Position numbers and translations under genes: made by a program. From Capsulimonadaceae bacterium (lineage in GTDB: Bacteria; Armatimonadota; Armatimonadia; Armatimonadales; Capsulimonadaceae), in assembly GCA_031292625.1 (NCBI GenBank), contig JARLGU010000001.1, positions 1 through 64,000 of the forward strand: a stretch of 64,000 bases of DNA, written 5' to 3'. Shown here piece by piece: positions 1,527 to 41,233 of this stretch; position 1 is the stretch's first letter, and the number at the start of each line of letters is the position of its first letter. Below the pieces are notes generated by a model that was given only the letters and a program-made list of their open reading frames with translations, ran no database searches and had not been told where the DNA came from.

Positions 1527-2447
1527 CTACCGGCGCCCTGGCTTCTTGGGCGATTGGGCTTCGAGGACGGGGTCGGGGCGGACGCCCCGGCGGCGGCGGT
1601 TCCAGATGCGGACGGTCGCACGAAGCCAGAGCCCCCAGCGGACCAGCCAGTGCTTCCAACGAGGCTGATGCGGGAAGTGCTTCTCATAATAGTGCATCCA
1701 CGATTCGTGAAACGCCCATATCATTTTCTCAGCGCTCTTATCACTGCTCGCGCCGATCTTATGCACGATCGTAGCGCCAGGAAAATACCAGACGCTCAGT
1801 CCGTTGTCCCACGCTCGCTTGCAGATGTCCACGTCCTCGCAGTACATATAGAAATCAGGGTCGAGCGCGCCAAACTTCTGGATGAAGTCCTGCCGGATGA
1901 GCATTGCGCAACCGGAGACCCAATGGACGCCGCACGCCTTCGTATGGTCGAAGTCGGCCATGAGATAGTTGCGCGCCCAGGGGTTGCGCGGAAACAGCCG
2001 GCCAAGCAAAGTGTTGCGAAATAATCCCGCCCAGAGGTTGGGAAAGCTGCGGCAAGAGAATTGTAGCGTGCCGTCGGGGTTCAGGACATGCGGTCCAATC
2101 ACCGCCGCCTCGGGATGTTGATCGGCAAAGGCGACGAGCTGGTCGAGCGCTTGCGGGGTTTCCACGGCGGCGTCGGAGTTGAGCAGGAAAACGTAGCGGT
2201 AGTCGGATGCCAGCGCGATCGCCCGGTTGTTTGCGCGCGAGAAGCCGACGTTCTCGGTATTGACCACGAGGTGCGCGTCGGGGAACTGCGACGCCGTCAT
2301 GTCCGCGCTGCCGTCGCTCGACGCGTTATCGACAACCCAAACGGCCCACTGTACGGCGGGTGGGGGAGTGGCGAATAGTGACGCCAGGCAGGCGCTAAGG
2401 TCTTCGCGGGCGTTCCAGTTGACGACGATGACGGCAATGTCTAACAT
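1527..2447 (-). CDS. Family 2 glycosyltransferase (WbbL/rhamnosyltransferase-like)
   Basis: A GT-A fold, family GT2 enzyme that would transfer an activated sugar to a lipid- or polymer-linked glycan at the cytoplasmic membrane face. The N-terminal strand IAVIVVNWNA, the VVDNASSDGS loop and the LLNSDAAVE metal-binding DxD-equivalent are all present, and the acceptor-side YCEDVDICKRA contains the ED(V)D motif of rhamnosyltransferase-type members. Its 306 residues are normal for the family, and the C-terminus is basic (WNRRRRG). It is the downstream member of two GT2 genes on the same strand, which points to successive additions in one repeat unit. Donor and linkage cannot be assigned. Confidence 0.9.
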   Translation of the reverse strand: MLDIAVIVVNWNAREDLSACLASLFATPPPAVQWAVWVVDNASSDGSADMTASQFPDAHLVVNTENVGFSRANNRAIALASDYRYVFLLNSDAAVETPQALDQLVAFADQHPEAAVIGPHVLNPDGTLQFSCRSFPNLWAGLFRNTLLGRLFPRNPWARNYLMADFDHTKACGVHWVSGCAMLIRQDFIQKFGALDPDFYMYCEDVDICKRAWDNGLSVWYFPGATIVHKIGASSDKSAEKMIWAFHESWMHYYEKHFPHQPRWKHWLVRWGLWLRATVRIWNRRRRGVRPDPVLEAQSPKKPGRR

Positions 2448-2620
2448 GATGTATTGTCTTTTCGGAGCCTGGTGCTCGAATAACGCCGATGAACTGCGAC
2501 AGGCAGCGGCAAGCGATGTTCTTCATGCCCGCGCTGACGCTGATTGTGAGCATTTTCTGATATCGAGGCTGTCGCGTATTGAACTGCGCGGACACGGCAG
2601 GCATCTTCGTCCCGAACGTG

Positions 2621-3496
2621 TCAGGGCTCGCGTTTCCTTCCAAGCAATTGGGCTCGCGCAATACGGATCGCCTCGCCGGCCAATATTGCCTCGACCGCTA
2701 GACGATAAGCAAGCGGGCTCATGGTCTTACGGTAATGCTTGTCGAAAAACCGGATCATCGAACGGTGCGATTCCCGGATCATCGCCGGTTTGGGCGCTTG
2801 TCGCGTAGATCCGCCTCCATAATGAACCAGACGGGCATCCGGAGTGTAATAGATCTTCCAGCCTGCCTGCTTAGCGCGATAGCACCAGTCTACCTCATTG
2901 AAGAAGATCGGGAATGATTCGTCCATTCCTCCAATTGCGTCGTAAACCTCGCGACGAGCCAGAAGGAAGGTGCCCATTGGCTGGTCGACTTCGGTAGCCC
3001 GATCGTAATCGAATCCGCGCATCATGTACGAGGCAAAGCGTCGCGAGCGCGGAAAGAGGCGACCCAATCCGAGCACTTCCCATGTAATCGCCGCCGGCGC
3101 TGGGAAACCGCGAACGCTGTGCTGCGTCGCTCCGTCCGGCTGAATCTGCCGTGCGCCGACCAGTCCGGCATCCGGGTGAGTATCCAAAAACTCAAGCGCT
3201 CGCGTAAGCGTAGCGGCTTCCAGGACGACATCCGGGTTCAGCAGGAGTAACCGGTCGCCCGTGGCGGCTGCAAGCGCCTGGTTATTTCCGCCGGCATAGC
3301 CCGCGTTGTGCGCGTTCGCGATCAGGACGACGGACGGAAACCGTGCACGCAGCATCTCCACGCTGCCGTCGATGGATGCGTTGTCCACGACGATCGTCTC
3401 GCATGCCTCGTCCGCGGGCGGGTAGGCTTCGATCGACTCAAGACAAGCGCTTAGATAATCCCGCGTGTTCCAGTTGACGATGCAAATCGATAGCAT
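2621..3496 (-). CDS. Family 2 glycosyltransferase (WbbL/rhamnosyltransferase-like)
   Basis: Paralogue of the adjacent downstream GT2. It begins LSICIVNWNTRDYLSACLES, has VVDNASIDGS and the metal-site LLLNPDVVLE, and carries FFNEVDWCYRA where rhamnosyltransferases have ED(V)D. The usual LVGARQIQPDGATQHSVRGFP segment follows the catalytic core. The full length is 291 residues. The gap to the second GT2 is 173 bases and holds no obvious gene or terminator, so both are probably on one transcript with the HAD phosphatase upstream. Role inferred: capsular, O-antigen-like or exopolysaccharide assembly. Confidence 0.9.
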   Translation of the reverse strand: MLSICIVNWNTRDYLSACLESIEAYPPADEACETIVVDNASIDGSVEMLRARFPSVVLIANAHNAGYAGGNNQALAAATGDRLLLLNPDVVLEAATLTRALEFLDTHPDAGLVGARQIQPDGATQHSVRGFPAPAAITWEVLGLGRLFPRSRRFASYMMRGFDYDRATEVDQPMGTFLLARREVYDAIGGMDESFPIFFNEVDWCYRAKQAGWKIYYTPDARLVHYGGGSTRQAPKPAMIRESHRSMIRFFDKHYRKTMSPLAYRLAVEAILAGEAIRIARAQLLGRKREP

Positions 3497-3534
3497 AGTG
3501 TCCGCTTGATTGCCGGCCCTCGTTTACCTTCGCG

Positions 3535-4230
3535 CTACACCAAAGGCCCTAGTTGACGATGCGCGTCGGCGAGATCGCGGACGAACAGATCTGGCGGCGC
3601 CGGATCGAACCAGGATGGATTGTGAGTTCCAAGAACTCCGATCGTGGCGAGGCAGCCAGCGGCCTTGCCAGCCATAACATCGAGCCAGTGATCGCCGACC
3701 ATGATCGTCTGTTCCGGCGGCGTGTTCAATGCGTCGAGCGCAACCCACAGATGGCGCGGGTCGGGCTTCGTGACCGCGACATCGTTGCGTGAGTAAAGGA
3801 CATCGTGGGCAATGCTCGCGGTTGCCAGAAGGCTTTCGGCAAGGCGCCGGCAGTTGCGCGTGACGACGCCTATCTTAACATGGGCGGCGCTCAGCGCATT
3901 CGTCCATTCGGGCGCTCCCGATATTGGAACGGCATCCTCGCAGCCTTGCGCCTCAATCTGTTCGAGGCGATCGAAGGCAAGGTCGCGAAACGCCGCTGCT
4001 CGAGCGCCATCGCCGTTGTCTGAGCGTTCGATTTCGGCGCAAGCGTATCGAACGATGGAAAGGGCGTCCTGGGTTGCGGCGCCCTGGCAGTCGACTTTTG
4101 CCTGAGCGGCGAGCGCCAGCATGGCATTCTTCAACGCAGCGTAATCGATCCGAGTTTTCACCAGGGTGTCGTCAAGATCGAAGAGGACTGCCTTCACCGG
4201 CGTATCGATTCCTCCAGAATGAAGGATCAT
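3535..4230 (-). CDS. HAD-superfamily hydrolase (phosphatase)
   Basis: Haloacid-dehalogenase-type phosphatase of 231 residues. Motif I is FDLDDTLV, with the nucleophilic Asp and the acid/base Asp two residues later. Motif II Thr lies in IGVVTRN, the motif III Lys in VTKPDPRHL, and the motif IV acidic pair in MVGDHWLDVMAG. The alpha-helical insertion after motif I is the C1 cap typical of phosphoglycolate phosphatase or beta-phosphoglucomutase relatives. It heads the minus-strand run of polysaccharide genes, so a sugar-phosphate substrate is plausible, though general metabolite repair is equally possible. The first in-frame ATG at 4230 is used; a start about 11 codons later (VKAVLFD) would also keep the fold intact. 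Confidence 0.85.
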   Translation of the reverse strand: MILHSGGIDTPVKAVLFDLDDTLVKTRIDYAALKNAMLALAAQAKVDCQGAATQDALSIVRYACAEIERSDNGDGARAAAFRDLAFDRLEQIEAQGCEDAVPISGAPEWTNALSAAHVKIGVVTRNCRRLAESLLATASIAHDVLYSRNDVAVTKPDPRHLWVALDALNTPPEQTIMVGDHWLDVMAGKAAGCLATIGVLGTHNPSWFDPAPPDLFVRDLADAHRQLGPLV

Positions 4231-4264
4231 AGGGTCGCGCTTCCTGCCGCGGTTGGTTGCATAG

Positions 4265-4672
4265 GCGAGGGAAAAGCCCGCCTGTAAGCCGGGTTCTGTG
4301 TTTGTATGGCCATCTCTCTAGGAGCGCCGTTGCCGGCGCCCTCCAGCGGCTTGTCCAGGCACGGAGGAACGCCGTGGCCGTTGCCGGCAGCGTCGTTCGC
4401 TAAGCGGGCCGCTTAAACCCGCGCCCTGTTCGCCTTGCTCCCGATGGGGTTTACCCGGCGCGTCTGTCTCCAGACGCCCGGTGCGCTCTTACCGCACCAT
4501 TTCGCCCTTACCCGGCGCATGCGCCGGGCGGTATGTTTCTGTGGCACTTTCCGTCGGGTTGCCCCGCCCGGCCGTTAGCCGGCATCGTTGCCCTGTGGAG
4601 CCCGGACTTTCCTCTCCCGCGCGCCGCCGAAGCGGGCGTGGCAGCGGCCACCCGTCGAACTTTTCCCTCGTA
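4265..4672 (-). ncRNA. rnpB: RNase P RNA, bacterial class A
   Basis: Read on the minus strand this has the hallmarks of bacterial RNase P RNA: GAGGAAAGTCCGGGCTCC near the 5' end, GGTGCGGTAAGAGCGCAC in the middle, and ACAGAACCCGGCTTA near the 3' end. The termini pair to make an 11-bp perfect P1 helix (CGAGGGAAAAG at 4670-4660 with CTTTTCCCTCG at 4276-4266), which fixes both ends to within a few bases and gives about 405 nt. It is the catalytic RNA that removes 5' leaders from pre-tRNA together with RnpA. It lies between the HAD gene and the divergently oriented GntR gene. Confidence 0.96.
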
Positions 4673-4674
4673 CC

Positions 4675-4680
4675 ATTATA
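4675..4680 (-). promoter_or_regulatory. -10 element for rnpB
   Basis: On the minus strand TATAAT occupies 4680-4675, about 5 to 7 bases before the P1 helix of RNase P RNA, exactly where the -10 box of a stable-RNA promoter should be. No good -35 match is visible 16-18 bases upstream. Confidence 0.7.
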
Positions 4681-4834
4681 CCCTTCGCCGGGCGAGCGGG
4701 GCTTTGACGATTCCGTGGAAGGGCCGTGGCGTTACGCTTGTGATGCTTCCTGATCCTTGGCGATGCTCCTTTTCCGGCTGCACGGCACGCATCTTGGCCG
4801 CAGACCGAAAATGACACTTTTTGTGAAAGTGACG

Positions 4835-4863
4835 TTGACAAATCTGCGATCCCTCTGTATAAT
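4835..4863 (+). promoter_or_regulatory. Consensus sigma-70 promoter of the GntR gene (module 1)
   Basis: TTGACA (4835-4840), a 17-base spacer, then TATAAT (4858-4863): a perfect consensus housekeeping promoter. The start codon of the regulator is 32 bases beyond the -10 box. A promoter this strong in front of a repressor-type gene suggests it is normally held down, most likely by its own product. The direct repeat ACTATA lies twice between the -10 box and the start codon and could be part of an operator. Confidence 0.85.
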
Positions 4864-4894
4864 TGAACTATAGCGCCTGTACTATATAAGACAA

Positions 4895-5977
4895 ATGCCC
4901 GAACTTAAATATCAATCAGTGCGAGAAGCATTAGAGGCGGCAATCGTATCCGGTCAATACGTCGCCGGCGATCAGTTGCCTGCGGAGCAGGACATTGCCA
5001 GATCCTACAACGTATCGTTTATGACGGCCCGTCGGGCGGTGTCCGAACTGGTTGCCGCGGATATTTTGGAGCGGCGTTCGCGCCGCGGGACGTTTGTTCG
5101 GCATAGGACAGTCAGCAGGATCTCCAAGCCAACCGTCAACTGGATAGCGACCTTATACGACGGCCCGTTCCATGTCAAGATGCTTAACCACTGCCTTAGC
5201 GCCTGTGAGCGGCGCGGGTGGCACGCTAACGTTGTCCGTCTGGCGGCCGATCAGCAGGACGCGGCAGTCAGGATCATAGAAAGCGGCGGTTATGCGATCA
5301 TTTCCCTCGACGACGTGCGAGAAGGCAGCGCGTTGGGCCGGGCTCTTCGCTCGGGATCGGATCGGGTCGTCTCGCTTTCTCCGGACCTGTCCAAGATCGG
5401 TGTGACGACCATCATGGCCGACGAAGCCGGAAGCATTCTCATGGCGTTGGAAAGGCTGAAACAGGCAGGGCACGAGCGGATTGCAATCGCAGCGCAATTT
5501 TCTGGTGATGAAAACGATCCAGAACATTTGGTGGCGTGGCAGCGATTGTTCCTGGAGACGTATCGCTCCATCGGCCTAGATATACCGTTGATCCGGGCTT
5601 GTGCCCCGCTTGGGCATTCTCCGGCAGAGGGCGCCTATGTCGCCGTTCAAGAGTTCCTTGCCGCCAACAACGATGTGACTGCTATTGTGGCTATGGGGGA
5701 TGAATTGACGGTCGGCGTGCTGGCTGGCTGTCGCGATTGTGGAAAGCCATGTCCAGACAAAACGTCCGTACTTTGTCTCTACGACTCGTCGCTCATGAGA
5801 TTTGCCGTACCCGCCGTCACTAGCGTGGATTCCGATCTTGGCGGACAAATGGGCGTCGCTGTTGATATTCTGAGCGCGAAGATGGCGGGGCGAGATTCGG
5901 GACCGCTCATTCGGCACACGCATACGAAGATAATTGAGCGCGCCAGTGTTGGGCCGCCTAACGGCAGAAGTAGTTAG
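4895..5977 (+). CDS. GntR-family regulator with LacI-type sugar-sensing domain (AraR-like)
   Basis: Transcriptional regulator of 360 residues with two domains. Residues 1-72 form a GntR winged helix (REALEAAIVSGQYVAGDQLP, then ARSYNVSFMTARRAVSEL and ILERRSRRGTFVRH). Residues about 80-355 are a periplasmic-binding-protein-like effector domain of the LacI/GalR class, with LKQAGHERIAIAA and the characteristic NDVTAIVAMGDELTVGVL stretch. This is the layout of AraR, which releases DNA on binding a sugar. It is followed by a pseudopilin gene and a large glycoside hydrolase, so it probably controls both in response to a breakdown product. The effector is unknown. Confidence 0.9.
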   Translation: MPELKYQSVREALEAAIVSGQYVAGDQLPAEQDIARSYNVSFMTARRAVSELVAADILERRSRRGTFVRHRTVSRISKPTVNWIATLYDGPFHVKMLNHCLSACERRGWHANVVRLAADQQDAAVRIIESGGYAIISLDDVREGSALGRALRSGSDRVVSLSPDLSKIGVTTIMADEAGSILMALERLKQAGHERIAIAAQFSGDENDPEHLVAWQRLFLETYRSIGLDIPLIRACAPLGHSPAEGAYVAVQEFLAANNDVTAIVAMGDELTVGVLAGCRDCGKPCPDKTSVLCLYDSSLMRFAVPAVTSVDSDLGGQMGVAVDILSAKMAGRDSGPLIRHTHTKIIERASVGPPNGRSS

Positions 5978-7356: not shown

Positions 7357-10300
7357 ATGAATCGTTCGTGGCGAAACTCATGCTTCTCATATTCTTTGAT
7401 AGCTCTGGCATTGTTCATGCCAATGGCCGCCTTTAGGGTCGCACATGCAGACGACCAAGCCTCTTCGACAAACGCGGTCATCAACGGCGACTTCGAGCAG
7501 GGGCTGAATGGTTGGAAGTGGGTTATAGCATCGCGAGCAGACGCTTGCGCGGCAGTCGATTCCACTCAACCCCACTCTGGCCGCAACGCGGTGCGTATCA
7601 CCAACAAATCCCAGTTAGGAGCAAACGTATACGGATCGCTTCAACAGGGTCTGACGGGGCTCAAGCCAGGCACGGAATATGAGCTGAGTCTCTGGGTGAA
7701 GTCGGTCAATGCCAACAACTGCTGGTTTGGCGGCGGACCAGACTGGAAAGTGCGGCAAGGTCTGCCGGTGAACGCGCACGCATGGAGCCGCGAAGCCATT
7801 CGGTTCAAAACAGGGAAAGACGATACGACGTGGATCGTGATTATCAACGCTGACGGTCCGACAGACGAACTGCTGCTCGACGATGTTGCCATCGTCGAGG
7901 CGAATGGCCGTCATGCATGGGTCTTTTCACCGGCCGTGAATGCAGCCTCGCTCGCTGGCGAAAAGGCATCTGTCGAACTCGCGAAAGGCGCGTACGATGC
8001 GGCATTCTATGACAAGTCGGAAGACATCTCCGGGACGGCATCGTTCACGGCGCCCGCTAATTATCCGGGCGGACGCGTTTCTCTTGGCTTTAGGAACAAC
8101 GATGGCAGCGAAACAACAATTGCCTCCGCGGTAGTTCCAGCCGTATCCGCTTCATCGATATTGACGGTTCCATTCCTAATCTCGGCTACGTGGTTTCCAC
8201 AGGGCAAAACGCTTATGCAGGTTTGTCTTGACCGGTTGCCTGTTGCGTCGGCCACGGTTAGTCGCGATGATATTTCCGGCCAACTGCCACAGTTCGCATT
8301 GGATACCGCGCATCGCCTTGACAAGGTGCGGGGCGATGCAGCGGCGCGCCGCCTCACCTCGAACAGTTACGTTGGGTTAGGGCTAAATGTGGCATCTCGT
8401 TTCGTAAACCGGGTAGAGGCGCCGGATATTGCGGCGAAACAAAATGACGGATGGACCTGGCTGCAACTGCGCGAGGTTCAGTCCGTTTTGGATGAAACCG
8501 AACAGCTTTTGCGCAACCCAATTCCGAGCGCGCCGAGTTGTCCGTTCGGACCGGTACGGATCGACCGCGGCGTATTCGTGTCCGATAAACTAGGAGCTTC
8601 CGGTCCTGTATTTTTCGGAGGATACGGGCACTTCGACCAAGTGCTGAAAGACGCTCCCAATTTTCCCGGCTTGGGCGCATCCATCATTCAAAACGAGATG
8701 GGACCCAATTCGCTCAGATCTGATGGTACGGATACTGGCAACTTGTCGGAGTTGCTGAGCAGATTCAAAAGATGTACGGCGAACTCCATTTCGCTTGATC
8801 TGCTCCTATCTCCACACTATTTTCCCAAATGGGCTCAGCTGGAAGCTCCAGATGTCATGGTCAACAATCCAGGCTTCATCACCTATAACATCGACCATCC
8901 GGTCGCGAGAAAAGCCGTGGGGCAGTGGATCAAGGCCGCCGTATCGGCAGTGAAAGACGAGCCATCGCTTTTCTCGGTTTGCCTTTCCAACGAACCGGTC
9001 TATGAGGAAAGTGGACGCGACCCATATTCGAGGCCGTTGTGGATCGAATACCTGAGATCCAAGCACGGTGCAATCGACAACCTGAATATGCTGTACGGTA
9101 CGAGCTACAAGAGCTTCGATGACGTGCTCGTCCCACCCGCGGCAGTTCCGAGCCTCACAGAACCCACAAACTCCCTCTGCGCATACTACGACTGGATGCA
9201 GTTCAACGCGGAGCATTTTGCCGATTGGCATCGCTGGATGAACGGCATTGTCAAATCGGTTGCTCCCAATGTCCGAACTCATTCCAAGGTAATGGTCTTT
9301 GATGTATTGTCCCGCGATGCTTTGGATCGGGGAACCGATCTGGAACAATTCTGCAATATTACCGGCATTGCGGGCAACGACGAGGGGACAGGCGTGTTGA
9401 AAGACGACGATACGGACGCCCAGTCGTCGATCCCATATGCGTATAAGTGGCAGGGGGAAGAGCTGGCTTACGATCTTCTGCGGTCTTTCCGTAATCAGCC
9501 AGTATTCAATTCCGAGAACCACATTATCCCCGATCACTATACGCTTCCCGTTCCAGGCGACTATGTGCGCTCCGTAATGTGGCAGGGGGCGCTGCACGGA
9601 CAGGGCGCAACGACTACATGGGTGTGGGGCGAGGAGCCCAAGCCGAGCGGCGATCTTTACGGCTCGATCTATTTCCGGCCGGCAGATATATTCGGCGCCG
9701 GTCGCGCGTGGATTGACGCTCTCCGCTGCGCCGCTCAGGTCGCCGCAATCGTGCGCGCCAAACCGCATATTGCGATCCTCTATACGCGTACTTCGCTCTA
9801 TTGGCAGAAAGACTACGCACAATCGGTATTAGCTGCGTACACGGCGTTGACGTTCCTCGGCGAGCCGGTTACGTTCGTAAGCGAAACGCAGCTTGCCGAA
9901 GGGCGCGTGCCGCCGGTCCGCGCGATTCTTCTACCGCATGCGACCAATGTTGGCGACGGCGCCGTAAATGGATTGGCTACGTTCGTGGCGAATGGCGGCC
10001 GTCTTATTGCGTTGGGAGACGGCAACTTGAGCCGCGACGAGTACAGCCGTGCGCGAGATCTCTCGGCGGCCCTCAAGCCAACACCGCTTCCGTTCAGCGA
10101 CGACGAGCGCGTCGTCTATCGCCAGCTTTCGCCGATTGCCAAGGTTTTGGGTGCGCCGGGCGAGCTGCACGACGCGGCAAGTGGCAAAGGCGTATTGGGG
10201 GTAGAATTCCGCGTCGTCAGCGACCGGGGGCGGACGTATCTTTCAGCCCTCAATCAGACGAAGACGCCGGTCACTGTTCGGCTGTCGCGTCCCACGAGCG

Positions 10301-35909: not shown

Positions 35910-38900
35910 TCACGCTGGACATGTAAACAGATATGGACATCGTGCGCACAAGCGCGCTTCGTTCGGGCGCGCTGGAAACTCGCTCCGGGCGATCCCGGCT
36001 GCGGCATCATCGTATTTCTTGACGCGTCCCGGCTCCCATTTCGGGCTTCGCGCGACGACGCGCTTAGCTCCGGTTTGCAGGTAACGTAGTTCGATCCGCG
36101 CGTTGCGGGACGGGGCCGTGTCGTCGGCGGCGCGTCTCAAGAGAGCCAGGTGCGGGCTCGTATGGTCGTCGTCCTGCGGGCGGCCGAGAATGTGGCGGGC
36201 GATCACGAGTTGTCCTGCGTCGTCGTACGCTACTAAATCCGCCGCGGCGCGCACATCGGCTCCGTCGAGACGCGCGATGAGCTTGTCGGAGCGATCGACG
36301 GGCCGCAACTTGTCCGTCGCCCATGCCTGTTGCGCCGCCTCCAGCATTTCGCGCGCGCGTCCAGCGAAGAGCTCGTCGTATGGCGCGGGCATTTCGCCAT
36401 GCCCGCGCGCCTGCTCGTCGTAGTGCGCTGAGAGATCCTCGATTCCGGGCGAGCGTCCCGCTTTCCATTCGCGGCGCAACCAGGTGAGCGAGTCATTAAT
36501 TGCGCGCGAAAAGACTTCGCCAGGCGTCAGTTGTCGAGTTGAGCCTAGCTGGGCGTGTACGGCGTAGTAGTATTGGCGCGGACAGCGGAGATAGACGTTG
36601 AGCTGATGCGAAGTGTACGATGCGCGGGCGGGAAGGTTGGGAATATTCTCCTCCGCCTCAGAAGCCAGCGGCGTCGATGACGTCGTTTTGGCCGCCCATC
36701 GCGTTTCGCGCACCCCGAGGCGATGCAGGTCTTCTTCGATAAACGAAAGCAGGGGGGACGCCGATAGCCTGGCGTTGTGCTCGCCGCCGGCTTCGCAACG
36801 CGAAAGGATCAAGTGTTCGCGCGCTCTCGAAATCGCGACGAAAAACAGACACTCCTCTTCGCCTTGATCGGAAAACGCACCGTTGCCGCCGGTATCGGCC
36901 ATGCCCGGAGGCTCGGGGATCACCGGGTCGCGCGGGCGCGGCGGAAATCGGCCCTGCGTGAGGTTAGGGACGAAGACGACTGGGAATTCGAGACCCTTTG
37001 CGGCGTGAGCGGTGATCATCGCGACCGCATCGTAGGACCGCGCCTCGTTGCTCAGGTCCAGCGTGGGCGTGTCGCCGGATGCAATCATGCGGCGGACGGC
37101 GTCCAGGAAGCGAATGCGTTGATCGGCCTGGGCGTTCGGAGTTACAAGCTCGTCTGTCGCATCGTCAGCGTCTCCGGTCTCCTCGGCCTGCTCGGTTCTT
37201 GCCTCGTAGACGCGGGCTAGCTCGATGAATTGGCGGACCGTGCAGATGCTGCGCAAGGTAGGCAAGTCGCGGACCGGTTGATCGCCGTCCGCGCCAAGCC
37301 GGTCACGAAGATACTGCGACTCCTGGAAAAGGAATCGTTCCAGGCAGAGAGCCGGGTCTGTTTCGTCGCCAAGCGCGAGAATCATCCGGCGAAGCGTTGC
37401 AAATCCCTGCGTCGACTCAAACGTGCTCGCGAACTCAGGGTCGCTTAGGGCGCTGACCACGCTCCTGTCGCTTCGTCCAATCGCCCTCGCAAGCGTGATG
37501 GCGTCGTCCGGCGTCATACCGATCTCCGGGATGAGCGCTAGCCTGATGAGGCCAATCGCGGATGATGGGTGTGCGGTCAGGGCCTGTAGGAGCGCGAGCA
37601 GATCCTTCGACTCAGGCCGGTCGAGTAAATTTTGCGCGCAAATCGCCGGTATATCGCGTTCCGCGAGGCTATGGGCAAGGATCTCCGCTTGATAGTGCGT
37701 CCGGCAGAGGATAGCCTGATTCGCATACGCCGTTCCGGCTTTGTGCAAAGCACGGATGCTGTCCGCGATTCCATCTGCCTGGGCTTCATCGGTTTCCGCG
37801 ACGGCGTACGTCACCGCCGGAAAGTCGCGCTCCGCAGTGCCGCGTGCGCTTTGCCATCCGGCCTCTCGCGCGGGCGCATTTTGCGCGGAAGCAGCCATGC
37901 GGGTCGACGCCGCGGAAAACAATTCGACAACTTCAGCTCGTGACCGGTAGTTGATCGCAAGCTCATCCTTGACGCCGTCCGCATAGTCCTTGTGAAATGC
38001 CGCGATATTGGCAGGGGACGCGCCGCGGAACCGGTAGATGCTTTGCCGATGGTCGCCAACCAGCCAGAGGTTCTCGCCGGACGGTCCGGCGAGCAGCCGT
38101 ATGAGCCTTGCGCAGGCTCGGTTCACGTCCTGGTATTCGTCGGCGAGGATGTGCGGATACTGCGCGTGAACTTCGTCTGCGACGCCGGGATTCAGTCGTA
38201 GAAGGCGCACAGGGAGCGCGATTAAGTCGCCGAAATCGATGGCATTGGCTTCCTTGAGCAGGTCCTGGTAGGTGGCGTATACCGATGCTGTTTCGATCGT
38301 GCGATTGGCGGCGCGGGCCTTTTTCAATTCCGTGTCCGCGTCTGGCGTCATTCGTTCGGCCAGTCTGGCATAACGCACCGGACCGCACAGTTCGTCCTTT
38401 GCGCGCGAAATAGCAGTGAGGATGTCGCGAAGATGCAGGGCCGGATTGTTGATGTCCTCCAGCTCAGAGAGCGCCAGGCGGCCCAGGTTGCGTTCGAGCA
38501 TATGAAATGCTTCCTGACCATCAAGCAAACGCCACCCGGGACGCAAGCCGACATGGTGTCCGTATCGGCGCAGCAACTCGAGACCGAATGAGTGAAACGT
38601 ACCGATCCAAGGACCGGCGCGCCTGCCGCCGATGCCGGAAGCAATCAGACGTTCGCGCATCTCCTCGGCAGCTTTGCGTGAGAACGTCAAGGCCAAGATC
38701 GACTCCGCCGAAACCTTACGTTCGAGCACGAGATGGACGCAGCGGGCAACGAGTGTTCGCGTTTTGCCCGTGCCAGGGCCGGCGCCGAGAAGAAACGGCG
38801 CTCCCGCCCATTCGGCGGCGCGCCTCTGCGACTCGTCCAGCGCGGCAGGAAGCGGCGGAGCCTCGGGGACCTGCGGGGGAGCGTGCTCCTGTGCGGGTGA

Positions 38901-39467
38901 GGTGGGCGCGCAGGGTGCGAGAATCGCCTGGGCGAACTGGGAGCGGACAAACGCCATAGACAGCCCGGTATTGCGCGCGACCGCGTTCGCATTCCAGCCC
39001 TCGCGGAAGAACCGGCTTCGCAGGTCGTCGATCGGCAGCAACAGCTCGGCGGCGAATAGGTTGGCTTCGTATTCGCGACGCTGCTGAGCCGAATAACCGT
39101 CCACGCGCGTCATCGCTGCGACAGGCGCACCGTCCGGATCAATCTGGTCGGTCAGTTCGTTTCCCGCCGCGCAATGGGGGGATTCGTCGTGCAGGACCAG
39201 ATGTGCGAACTCATGCGCGGCATCGAAAAGCCGTGCGGATGCCGCCTGCCGATCGCTTTGCCAGATCATCCCTGCATCACGGTCAAGCACCGCTTGCGCT
39301 CCGGCGAGCAGGAGATCATCCGCGGGAAGGACGACGCGCGCGATGCCCATTGCGCTTTCCGCCGCCGCAAGGATCTCCTCCGCCGGGCAGAGACAGCTGG
39401 CGTTTTCGATTATCGAGGATCGCCACTCGCGTGCGATGCGGCGAATCTGCTGGGCGTGTGCGTCCAT
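35910..39467 (-). CDS. ImmA/IrrE metallopeptidase - UvrD helicase - PD-(D/E)XK/Fe-S fusion protein
   Basis: 1185 residues in three parts. Residues 1-190: ImmA/IrrE (M78) metallopeptidase with zinc motif HEFAH (85-89) and the downstream Glu in REYEANLFAAELLLP. Residues 205-900: superfamily 1A helicase with Walker A GAGPGTGKT (228-236), Walker B LADEYQD (Asp443-Glu444), GDHRQSIYRFRGA, NYRS (506-509), HAAKGLEFPVVFVP and FVAISRAREHL. Residues 950-1185: RecB/AddB-like nuclease domain with Fe-S Cys 962, 1174, 1177, 1183; but the active-site D-x(n)-(D/E)xK reads Asp1077 then Ala1090-Arg-His, so nuclease activity is doubtful. Third gene of an operon with a sigma factor and an HTH-like protein. Likely role: DNA-end-stimulated helicase tied to proteolytic de-repression, in repair or defence (inference). 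Confidence 0.88.
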   Translation of the reverse strand: MDAHAQQIRRIAREWRSSIIENASCLCPAEEILAAAESAMGIARVVLPADDLLLAGAQAVLDRDAGMIWQSDRQAASARLFDAAHEFAHLVLHDESPHCAAGNELTDQIDPDGAPVAAMTRVDGYSAQQRREYEANLFAAELLLPIDDLRSRFFREGWNANAVARNTGLSMAFVRSQFAQAILAPCAPTSPAQEHAPPQVPEAPPLPAALDESQRRAAEWAGAPFLLGAGPGTGKTRTLVARCVHLVLERKVSAESILALTFSRKAAEEMRERLIASGIGGRRAGPWIGTFHSFGLELLRRYGHHVGLRPGWRLLDGQEAFHMLERNLGRLALSELEDINNPALHLRDILTAISRAKDELCGPVRYARLAERMTPDADTELKKARAANRTIETASVYATYQDLLKEANAIDFGDLIALPVRLLRLNPGVADEVHAQYPHILADEYQDVNRACARLIRLLAGPSGENLWLVGDHRQSIYRFRGASPANIAAFHKDYADGVKDELAINYRSRAEVVELFSAASTRMAASAQNAPAREAGWQSARGTAERDFPAVTYAVAETDEAQADGIADSIRALHKAGTAYANQAILCRTHYQAEILAHSLAERDIPAICAQNLLDRPESKDLLALLQALTAHPSSAIGLIRLALIPEIGMTPDDAITLARAIGRSDRSVVSALSDPEFASTFESTQGFATLRRMILALGDETDPALCLERFLFQESQYLRDRLGADGDQPVRDLPTLRSICTVRQFIELARVYEARTEQAEETGDADDATDELVTPNAQADQRIRFLDAVRRMIASGDTPTLDLSNEARSYDAVAMITAHAAKGLEFPVVFVPNLTQGRFPPRPRDPVIPEPPGMADTGGNGAFSDQGEEECLFFVAISRAREHLILSRCEAGGEHNARLSASPLLSFIEEDLHRLGVRETRWAAKTTSSTPLASEAEENIPNLPARASYTSHQLNVYLRCPRQYYYAVHAQLGSTRQLTPGEVFSRAINDSLTWLRREWKAGRSPGIEDLSAHYDEQARGHGEMPAPYDELFAGRAREMLEAAQQAWATDKLRPVDRSDKLIARLDGADVRAAADLVAYDDAGQLVIARHILGRPQDDDHTSPHLALLRRAADDTAPSRNARIELRYLQTGAKRVVARSPKWEPGRVKKYDDAAAGIARSEFPARPNEARLCARCPYLFTCPA

Positions 39468-39595
39468 GGAGAGATTAGAAGCCTTTCGGCCAACGTGACG
39501 GTTTCAGACGACAGGGCGATGCGGTCGCGTCGTGATTGCCGGCGCCGATTAAATCTAGCTGTTTGATGCCTGACCGGCGAGGGCCGCCGCCGGGG

Positions 39596-40255
39596 CTACT
39601 CATCAAGCCATTCATCGACTTGAGCTTGCTGCATCTCGCGCGATGCGACGGCGGTTCCAAGCGCGCGTGCGAACGGCTCGCGACGGATTGCGCCGTCGCT
39701 GTCTGCCAGGTCCGGTGCGGTTTTCGAGCGGTAGCTGGCTCCGGCGGCGAGCGTCGGCGGACCGCTCAGATAGGCGCGCAGGTCATCAGCGGCGCACCCA
39801 ATCGCGACGGCGATGCGCTGAATGGCCGGGGCCGGGACGGTCGCGGCATCAATCAAACGCCGGTCAAGCTTAACGAGGACCGAGCGCGCAAGACCGAGGG
39901 AGGCGCTGAGCTTAACCAGATCGAGGCCGTGGGCGCGCGCACGGTCAATGAGGCCGGTCAGCGGTACGGACGGCGCTTTAGAGGCGCTGAGCCGGCTGGC
40001 GATCAGCGCATCCGCGCGCGCCATGATCCGCGCATCGGCGGCGGCGTCTGCGGCGGTCTGCCGTGTGTTTGCGGCCTCCTGCGTGAAGGCGTAGTCGGCG
40101 ATTAACGCGGCGTGATCGGGGAAGGCGCGTAAGGTCATCGCAATAGCTTCAGCAGCGCTTGCGCCGCGTGCGATCGTTTGCTCATACAGATCGATCGCTA
40201 GATCCTCGGTGTCGACATCTTCTTGACGCACGCGCAATCTCTCTTCGTTAACCAT
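39596..40255 (-). CDS. HTH-like regulatory protein, partner of the sigma factor
   Basis: 219 residues, family not recognised. Residues 1-60 (DTEDLAIDLYEQTIARGASA, then AIAMTLRAFPDHAALIADYA) look like a helical interaction domain. Residues about 108-165 resemble a divergent XRE/Cro helix-turn-helix (ARAHGLDLVKLSASLGLARS, VLVKLDRRLIDAATVPAPAI, then IAVAIGCAADDLRAYL), the usual partner and cleavage substrate of ImmA/IrrE peptidases. The start ATG overlaps the sigma gene stop by 8 bases with GAGG in place, and the stop lies 128 bases before the helicase gene. Acting as repressor or anti-sigma factor, and being cut by the fused peptidase, are inferences from context. Confidence 0.72.
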   Translation of the reverse strand: MVNEERLRVRQEDVDTEDLAIDLYEQTIARGASAAEAIAMTLRAFPDHAALIADYAFTQEAANTRQTAADAAADARIMARADALIASRLSASKAPSVPLTGLIDRARAHGLDLVKLSASLGLARSVLVKLDRRLIDAATVPAPAIQRIAVAIGCAADDLRAYLSGPPTLAAGASYRSKTAPDLADSDGAIRREPFARALGTAVASREMQQAQVDEWLDE

Positions 40256-41033
40256 TGGCTTCGTCCTCCGAGCGCCACTCCGCGAGGTGTTTCGCGGCTC
40301 GTGCGAGATAGTTGCGGACGGTTCGTCCGCTGACGCCCATCATGGATGCGATCGACGGAGCGCCGTCGACGCCTGGTTCCTCGGGGTAGCCCGACCAGTG
40401 TTTGAGAAGAAAGGCCGTTCGGAGAGGCTGCGGCAGCCGCACGAGAGCATCGTCGATCACCGCATGCGTCTCCGGCTGGTCGAGATGTACGGCGTGTCTG
40501 TCGATGTCGACTGGACGCGGTTCCCTTTCGTCGTCCCAGTCGTCCCCTTCGTCGGCCACGATCTGGTCGAGTTCGCGACGTCTTCGCTTGAGCACATTCA
40601 GGGCGCGCCGGTTGAAGCAAACCCAGAATCGAATCTCCCAAAATCCCGCAGCCGGATCGTCGCTTAAGAGCTGGTCGTACAGGTCGGTGAGCACCTCGTC
40701 GACGACGTCTTCCGCGAGGTCGGGAGGATGAGCAAGCCGCCAAATCCGCATTTGGCGCGCCAGACGTCCGCTGACGCGCTTGGTGAGCAGACGAAGAAGT
40801 TCCGATGCGCCCGTATCGTCGCCGTCGCGCCGGCAACGCCGGACGAAATGCACGAGCGTCTCTTCGCCAATAGGCGCATCCCCGGCTGACGCCTCTACGA
40901 CCGCGGGGACAAGCCGTGTCCGAGGCAGGCGCGCTAGCCGCGCAACCTGTTCGGCAACCTCCGGCTCCATGACATAGCCGCCTGCGCGCGGAGCGGGTGA
41001 AGGGACGGTTGTGCTGATCGAACGAACGTCCAT
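40248..41033 (-). CDS. ECF-like sigma-70 family RNA polymerase sigma factor
   Basis: 261 residues. Region 2 (LLRLLTKRVSGRLARQMRIW, then DLAEDVVDEVLTDLYDQLL with the DxxQ/ExFx-type core helix, then FWVCFNRRALNVLKRRRREL) and region 4 (VIDDALVRLPQPLRTAFLLK, then IASMMGVSGRTVRNYLARAA) are recognisable. The linker between them is acidic (VADEGDDWDDEREPRP). I start it at 41033, where ATG comes 6 bases after a TATAAT, so the message is probably leaderless; the frame is open to 41231 but that extension is not sigma-like. First gene of the helicase operon. It may transcribe its own operon and further targets. Confidence 0.82.
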   Translation of the reverse strand: MDVRSISTTVPSPAPRAGGYVMEPEVAEQVARLARLPRTRLVPAVVEASAGDAPIGEETLVHFVRRCRRDGDDTGASELLRLLTKRVSGRLARQMRIWRLAHPPDLAEDVVDEVLTDLYDQLLSDDPAAGFWEIRFWVCFNRRALNVLKRRRRELDQIVADEGDDWDDEREPRPVDIDRHAVHLDQPETHAVIDDALVRLPQPLRTAFLLKHWSGYPEEPGVDGAPSIASMMGVSGRTVRNYLARAAKHLAEWRSEDEANG

Positions 41034-41062
41034 GCGCCTATTATACTGCAAATGGACGTTCG
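41023..41062 (-). promoter_or_regulatory. Sigma-operon promoter bracketed by an 11-bp perfect inverted repeat
   Basis: CGAACGTCCAT (41023-41033) and ATGGACGTTCG (41052-41062) are perfect complements, spaced by 18 bases that contain TATAAT on the minus strand (41045-41040). One arm covers the start codon of the sigma gene, the other the -35/-20 region. This is the layout of an operator for a dimer, or pair of dimers, that blocks polymerase, or of an alternative-sigma promoter. I could not find a good -35 hexamer. Confidence 0.7.
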
Positions 41063-41233
41063 CAACACGCGGCGAACCTAATCTGACGTGCGGCAAACGC
41101 ATCATGAACGCGGTAGCCTTGACTTCGTTGATAATGACGTTCTGCCCGCGCGATTCCTCGCAGGTATAATAATAGGCATTATGGGCGTGCGGCCACGATG
41201 CTTCGCGCCTGAAGCAAAGGATTTTTAGCACAA

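Follow-up and report, generated by a model that had tools for sequence, protein, structure and literature searches.

A conserved sigma factor–XRE-like protein–IrrE-UvrD fusion module: a candidate DNA-damage or defence switch of Armatimonadota and proteobacterial plasmids

We analyzed a 64,000-nt stretch (the window) of contig JARLGU010000001.1 from a Capsulimonadaceae bacterium of the phylum Armatimonadota (assembly GCA_031292625.1), in which three minus-strand genes encode a sigma factor, an XRE-like helix-turn-helix (HTH) protein and a fusion of an IrrE peptidase, a UvrD helicase and a RecB-like domain. A preliminary description of this DNA had reported these genes as a candidate DNA-damage or defence system, and all three are present, with small corrections only. 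The sigma and HTH genes overlap by 8 bases (40248–40255), as had been claimed, and a gap of 128 bases leads from the HTH gene to the fusion gene. This arrangement recurs in dozens of genomes and is therefore not due to chance. The sigma factor is of the extracytoplasmic function (ECF) type and its gene spans positions 40248–41033. The limit at 41062 given previously is out of frame; the open reading frame (ORF) extends from 40248 up to a GTG at 41231, and comparison with homologues favours an ATG at 41033 as the probable start, giving a product of 261 aa. Pfam and NCBIfam searches of this protein returned the region 4 profile PF08281 (E = 3.1e-8) and the sigma-70 family TIGR02937 (E = 1e-9), the latter just below its cut-off (38.2 vs. 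42.9 bits). In nearly all loci examined, a sigma homologue immediately precedes the HTH gene. A TATAAT hexamer is located about 8 bases before the ATG at 41033 (window 41034–41050); if it is a −10 element, either the message would be leaderless or the start would lie elsewhere.

The second gene (39596–40255) encodes a 219-aa protein without a match in Pfam, NCBIfam or PADLOC. Its AlphaFold2 model, based on a family of 41 homologous sequences, had a mean predicted local distance difference test score (pLDDT) of 86, reaching approximately 96–98 over residues 101–150. From a helical region at the N-terminus, the model runs through an XRE-like domain of five helices (residues ~102–163) to a conserved two-helix tail at the C-terminus. 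In Foldseek comparisons the nearest solved structures were XRE proteins, including SinR and DdrO, at weak E-values of 0.2–0.7, and no match was obtained at E < 0.001. The XRE-type HTH fold that had been suspected for this product is predicted by AlphaFold2, a fold call based on the local domain only. In three loci (L113, L115, and L118 of genomes G050, G048, and G049, respectively) we observed additional copies of sigma-like and HTH genes, with a short HTH protein devoid of the N-terminal domain encoded directly before the fusion and the long ones after the sigma copies.

The third gene (35910–39467) encodes the 1185-aa fusion, whose domains were assigned from Pfam and PDB matches and a 27-sequence alignment. 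The M78/IrrE peptidase domain (residues 65–175, positions 38943–39275; PF06114, E = 6.7e-13) carries an intact HEFAH motif at residues 85–89 (39201–39215). H85 and H89 are invariant and E86 is found in at least 90% of the sequences of the fusion alignment, and in an IrrE-only alignment H85, E86, H89, and E132 are all invariant. The SF1A UvrD/PcrA-like helicase (residues 206–895, positions 36783–38852) is built of the UvrD N (residues 210–495; PF00580, E = 1.2e-66) and UvrD C (residues 503–892; PF13361, E = 5.1e-32) parts, with the helicase motifs, including GAGPGTGKT and DEYQD, intact. It matches UvrD, PcrA, and Rep proteins, its nearest PDB sequence being DNA helicase II (4c2t, 1.6e-71), and in PADLOC it matched GajB at 1e-74. 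Gabija was considered on account of the UvrD-family helicase domain of GajB and was rejected, as no ORF for a GajA OLD-family nuclease was seen among the neighbours of the module in the window; unlike in Gabija, the helicase has its best PDB sequence matches in UvrD/PcrA and is fused to IrrE.

The C-terminal part of the fusion (residues 955–1184, positions 35916–36605) is a RecB/AddB-like Fe-S domain recognized as PDDEXK_1 (PF12705, E = 6.1e-11). Four cysteines that would hold the cluster (C962, C1174, C1177, and C1183) are invariant among relatives (22 sequences), and the (D/E)xK catalytic pair is absent from the window protein and all aligned relatives. The AlphaFold2 model of the domain (pLDDT 86.5) shows a nuclease-like fold matching ACE1/Cas4, AdnA, and Dna2. 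Thus, the Fe-S half of the original assignment holds and the nuclease half probably does not: judging by its residues, the PD-(D/E)XK domain has very probably lost its catalytic activity. Because the nuclease-like fold and the Fe-S cysteines remain while the catalytic pair is lost, we read it as a putative DNA-binding domain.

Results of the survey of 291 Armatimonadota genomes point to the three genes being one conserved module. The HTH profile matched 41 of these genomes, and the IrrE profile separated the long fusions clearly from stand-alone IrrE. All intact members are fusions, with frames of 586–1256 aa and no stand-alone peptidase among them. Most loci keep the order sigma–HTH–fusion seen in the window, a conservation of gene neighbourhood that bears out the earlier view of a single module. 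A fusion with intact HExxH is encoded in 43 genomes, 40 of which also have the HTH gene: directly upstream in 34 and as a sigma-HTH pair elsewhere in six (at a distance of 16 kb in G008 and of 4.6 kb in G009, and on other contigs in G039, G040, G046, and G053). The three intact-fusion genomes in which no HTH gene was found (G016, G038, and G041) are 85, 93, and 64% complete, respectively. The proposed partnership would be undermined by fusions standing alone in relatives, and such fusions do occur in four Armatimonadota genomes (G022, G024, G025, and G003), which have no HTH gene; but in all of them the peptidase site is destroyed (HADAH in G022, HHFAH in G024 and G025, HAIGH in G003). The lone fusions therefore support a link between peptidase and HTH protein rather than refute it (HTH gene in 40/43 vs. 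0/4 genomes; Fisher p = 2e-4). A degenerate second fusion copy (HAEAH) is also present in G021 beside a separate intact module. The reverse case is given by the shortened fusions of L107, L110, and L112 (645-aa type) and that of L105 (3178–5577), in which IrrE is intact and UvrD motif II is degenerate (DNYEQ, DDFDK); all four loci retain the sigma and HTH genes. Since HExxH-dead fusions lack the HTH gene and helicase-degraded ones keep it, the comparison indicates that it is the peptidase, not the helicase, that requires the HTH partner.

The same three genes were found on all 11 proteobacterial plasmids examined, from Rhizobium, Sinorhizobium, Bradyrhizobium, Roseovarius, Xanthomonas, Variovorax, Aquincola, Pseudomonas, and Acinetobacter. 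Homology was established with hidden Markov models (1e-14 to 1e-37 for the HTH protein, at most 3e-29 for IrrE), and HExxH is intact in 11/11 plasmid fusions. On most of these plasmids the genes next to the module are ubiquitin-like (Multi_ubiq, DUF6791-ThiF, DUF7665, and JAB).

Alignment of the sequences upstream of the sigma genes revealed a recurrent TTTCCG element, which forms part of a bipartite predicted promoter with fixed spacing, TTTCCG(G/C)NTT-13-NNAGT(A/G/C), that is, TTTCCG and AGT set 19 nt apart. Random 380-nt stretches served as background, their best scores reaching 14.5 at the 99th percentile. Approximately 18 of 39 Armatimonadota sigma genes score above this value, a post hoc count, as 14 sites had been used to build the matrix. 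The plasmids were not used for the matrix, and the sigma genes of 7/11 lie above the 95th percentile. Moreover, 8/11 plasmids have a second copy of the promoter right behind the fusion gene, in the gap that separates it from the ubiquitin-like genes or, on the Pseudomonas plasmid, from an IS element. Where the sigma gene has a site, the −10 variant of the second copy is that of the sigma gene of the same plasmid: TGTA in Rhizobium/Sinorhizobium, GCGACTT in Xanthomonas/Aquincola/Variovorax, and CGATTA in Bradyrhizobium/Roseovarius. In L220, L221, and L229 the variant-specific pattern is present exactly twice, at the sigma gene and in the post-fusion gap. The Acinetobacter pair and L228 have a weaker form of the promoter only.

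We then searched whole genomes for the pattern TTTCCGSNTY-15-AGTV, with the reversed pattern as a control. In 29 module genomes we obtained 239 matches vs. 34 for the control, and in 42 genomes that lack an intact module 66 vs. 64 (the incomplete G022 was left out), an excess that follows the module at Fisher p = 7e-15. Such a tie between promoter and module is consistent with the sigma factor being the output of the module, as the preliminary description had supposed. With two additional spacer bases the counts were 45 vs. 26, and an earlier pattern with wrong spacing, an unintended control, gave 7 matches in 18 genomes. Genome G022 (69% complete, same genus as a module genome) had 12 matches vs. 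2 in the control; therefore, an unassembled module is predicted there.

Genes just downstream of the motif were identified by NCBIfam and Pfam. In module genomes the motif precedes recA, ruvA, ruvB, mutL, recN, recQ, recD2, dprA, radA, comM, and ligA, as well as genes for an AddB-like PDDEXK protein, ThpR, Cas3, Cas9, Cse1, YhcG, an Eco57I methylase, DUF559 (twice), HsdR, C5- and N4/N6-methylases, PARP-WGR, ADP-ribosylglycohydrolase, a PolX-like HhH protein, and SNase. The window's own genome (G000) was searched by pattern only. Of its exact matches, one lies before dprA, another before radA and a third inside a phage-like ORF. With one mismatch allowed there were 27 matches vs. 14 in the control, and the targets include comM, cas3, yraN, xseA, and thpR, with recA immediately behind the last of these. 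The repair, recombination, CRISPR, and restriction genes behind the motif agree with the DNA-damage or defence output that had been proposed for this locus, although neither a regulon nor the ubiquitin-like operons on plasmids had been anticipated in that proposal.

The reading that we prefer, with a probability of roughly 0.6, is that the module turns DNA damage or foreign or single-stranded DNA (ssDNA) into sigma-driven transcription of repair and defence genes. The UvrD helicase together with the Fe-S dead-nuclease domain would bind and track DNA ends or ssDNA. Engagement of DNA would activate the IrrE peptidase, which, judging from its family, would cut the adjacent XRE-like HTH protein, probably in the conserved C-terminal region. 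In line with this, ssDNA activates both PprI/IrrE and CapP, which cleave XRE repressors (PMC10904395, PMC13373217). Acting as an anti-sigma factor, the HTH protein would keep the sigma factor in check until cutting releases it. As the comparative evidence suggests, the sigma factor would then recognize TTTCCG(G/C/A)NTT-13-NNAGT(A/G) promoters, in relatives before its own operon and more widely before genes for repair, recombination, competence, CRISPR-Cas, and restriction. In proteobacteria, the plasmid-borne module would drive the ubiquitin-like operon next to it.

Several points weigh against this proposal. The sigma gene of the window has no predicted promoter within 300 nt of its start (best score 3.0, at least five consensus mismatches), so that the predicted promoter points to autoregulation in many relatives but gives no sign of it in the window. 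Some other regulator, inherited together with the module, could be what uses the promoter, and the sigma regulon is deduced from comparison of sequences. The proteins annotated downstream of the motif were partly picked by eye, and some targets fall outside repair and defence, namely a penicillin-binding protein, DUF899, ARPP-1, HtrA-like proteases, and IS605 transposases. In addition, LexA (LexA_DNA_bind) was detected in 260 of the 291 genomes, including G000. We therefore rejected the module as a replacement of LexA, which is nearly universal in the phylum; because LexA is present, the module would act beside the SOS response, and at most in parallel to it.

The HTH protein is proposed to be both the substrate of the peptidase and an anti-sigma factor or repressor. 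We favour the anti-sigma role on four grounds: the protein is extended by a helical domain at its N-terminus, its gene overlaps that of the sigma factor, the sigma-HTH pair stays together where the fusion has relocated, and no operator-like palindrome is evident at the sigma promoters by eye (no systematic search was made). Apart from the gene overlap, these points argue against a role like that of DdrO, CapH or ImmR, in which the HTH protein would bind DNA and repress the sigma operon, and its cutting would raise sigma synthesis and leave module and regulon as described; so does the fact that the regulon promoters share the sigma −35 and −10 elements only. A repressor is nonetheless possible, if unlikely, considering the XRE fold with DdrO and SinR as the closest folds, and given that all characterized IrrE, ImmA, and CapP substrates are DNA-binding repressors (PMC10904395, PMC13373217).

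Two other explanations concern the regulon itself. It might be mainly a programme of natural transformation and recombination, with the module sensing incoming ssDNA and dprA, comM, radA, recA, and yraN serving as competence genes. The sites before dprA, comM, radA, thpR-recA, and yraN in the window's genome would suit such a programme; we consider it doubtful in view of the non-competence targets (mutL, recN, recQ, recD2, ligA, ruvAB, xseA, Cas3, Cas9, HsdR, and methylases), and none of the uptake genes comEA/comEC was noticed among the targets, although they were not searched for. Alternatively, the motif may serve some regulator or sigma factor that is unrelated to the module, the latter being just one of its targets. 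The motif-less operon of the window would be accounted for in that way, and the pairing of motif and sigma factor comes from sequence comparison. Yet the excess of motifs follows the presence of the module across genomes, and plasmids of another phylum share the −35 element and have −10 variants matched between sigma and effector genes, which makes this explanation very improbable.

Known bacterial DNA-damage responses operate through cleavage of LexA, cleavage of DdrO or ssDNA-sensing WYL proteins. The module resembles PprI/IrrE-DdrO of Deinococcus in its M78 peptidase with HExxH and a downstream Glu, the linked XRE-type protein, and the DNA-damage genes as output. It differs in three respects: its peptidase forms one polypeptide with a UvrD helicase and a dead RecB-like Fe-S domain; its HTH protein is longer by an N-terminal domain and encoded in overlap with the sigma factor; and its output seems to depend on a dedicated sigma promoter instead of a repressor palindrome. 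CapP-CapH of CBASS/Bub systems is likewise a pair of peptidase and HTH protein beside immune operons, including ubiquitin-like ones, with CapP activated by ssDNA (PMC13373217), but it consists of two genes without a sigma factor or helicase fusion and exerts local control, in contrast to the genome-wide regulon predicted in Armatimonadota. PafBC of mycobacteria likewise activates a repair regulon with recA among its genes, independently of LexA and via promoter selection (PMC11804915); its WYL proteins adapt the housekeeping sigma factor, with no dedicated sigma factor and no protease. The plasmid effectors (Multi_ubiq, DUF6791-ThiF, RWD-like, and JAB) resemble class 6e of the PolyUbl/multiubiquitin systems (Iyer et al., 2006; PMC1779556). 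Row 6e of that article lists PolyUbl, an E2/RWD-like protein, a JAB-E1 and a metal-binding protein, and a term search of the article gave no sigma factor, HTH or helicase.

In the open-access literature we found no description of IrrE-UvrD-sigma fusions or of a DNA-damage response built on a dedicated sigma factor under the control of a helicase-protease. We see an even chance that this is an undescribed DNA-damage or immune response, in which a helicase-coupled IrrE protease frees a dedicated alternative sigma factor for direct transcription of recA and many recombination, CRISPR, and restriction genes, and that plasmids captured the switch for ubiquitin-like immune operons. If so, IrrE-type proteolysis would be linked to sigma-factor control, the members of a regulon in a little-studied phylum could be predicted one by one from sequence, and the sigma, HTH and "UvrD" genes next to plasmid ubiquitin-like operons would constitute a damage-triggered controller. 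The function of the IrrE-UvrD fusion is now framed as testable predictions.

The neighbours of the module in the window, identified by eye, are a cutA-like gene, RNase HI, and a glycyl-tRNA-synthetase-like gene. The window module is not beside an immune operon, such adjacency being limited to the plasmid relatives. Multi_ubiq elsewhere in the genome was matched in 2/47 Armatimonadota module genomes, one of them with a degenerate fusion, and we therefore rejected a ubiquitin-like effector as the usual chromosomal target. A ubiquitin-like gene adjoining a chromosomal module was seen only once, in L130 (G084), where a JAB-ThiF-like fusion gene (7677–9001, by eye) is divergent to the sigma-HTH-fusion operon. 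On an Acinetobacter plasmid (L226) a second UvrD-family gene (2331–5069) is divergent to the module. Contigs called viral mostly carry plain UvrD; only two from IMG/VR, L140 (266–4316) and L200 (3660–5144), have the HTH gene and the IrrE-UvrD fusion, and in L140 tail- or baseplate-like genes come after the module.

Further observations concern individual motif copies. In G000, two HtrA-like serine protease genes (L365, L366) follow one-mismatch copies, and in three related genomes (L321, L350, and L264) a class A penicillin-binding protein gene has the motif 142–143 nt upstream. Six near-identical copies in G026 (L332, L333, L334, L352, L353, and L354), with similar flanks TTTCCGGATT..CCAAACGAGTA or CTCAAACGAGTA and no clear gene downstream, are maybe a repeat element. 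IS605-type OrfB transposase genes stand right after the motif in G008 (L246/L295) and, by eye, in G009 (L312), which raises the question of whether these copies are damage-inducible transposase promoters.

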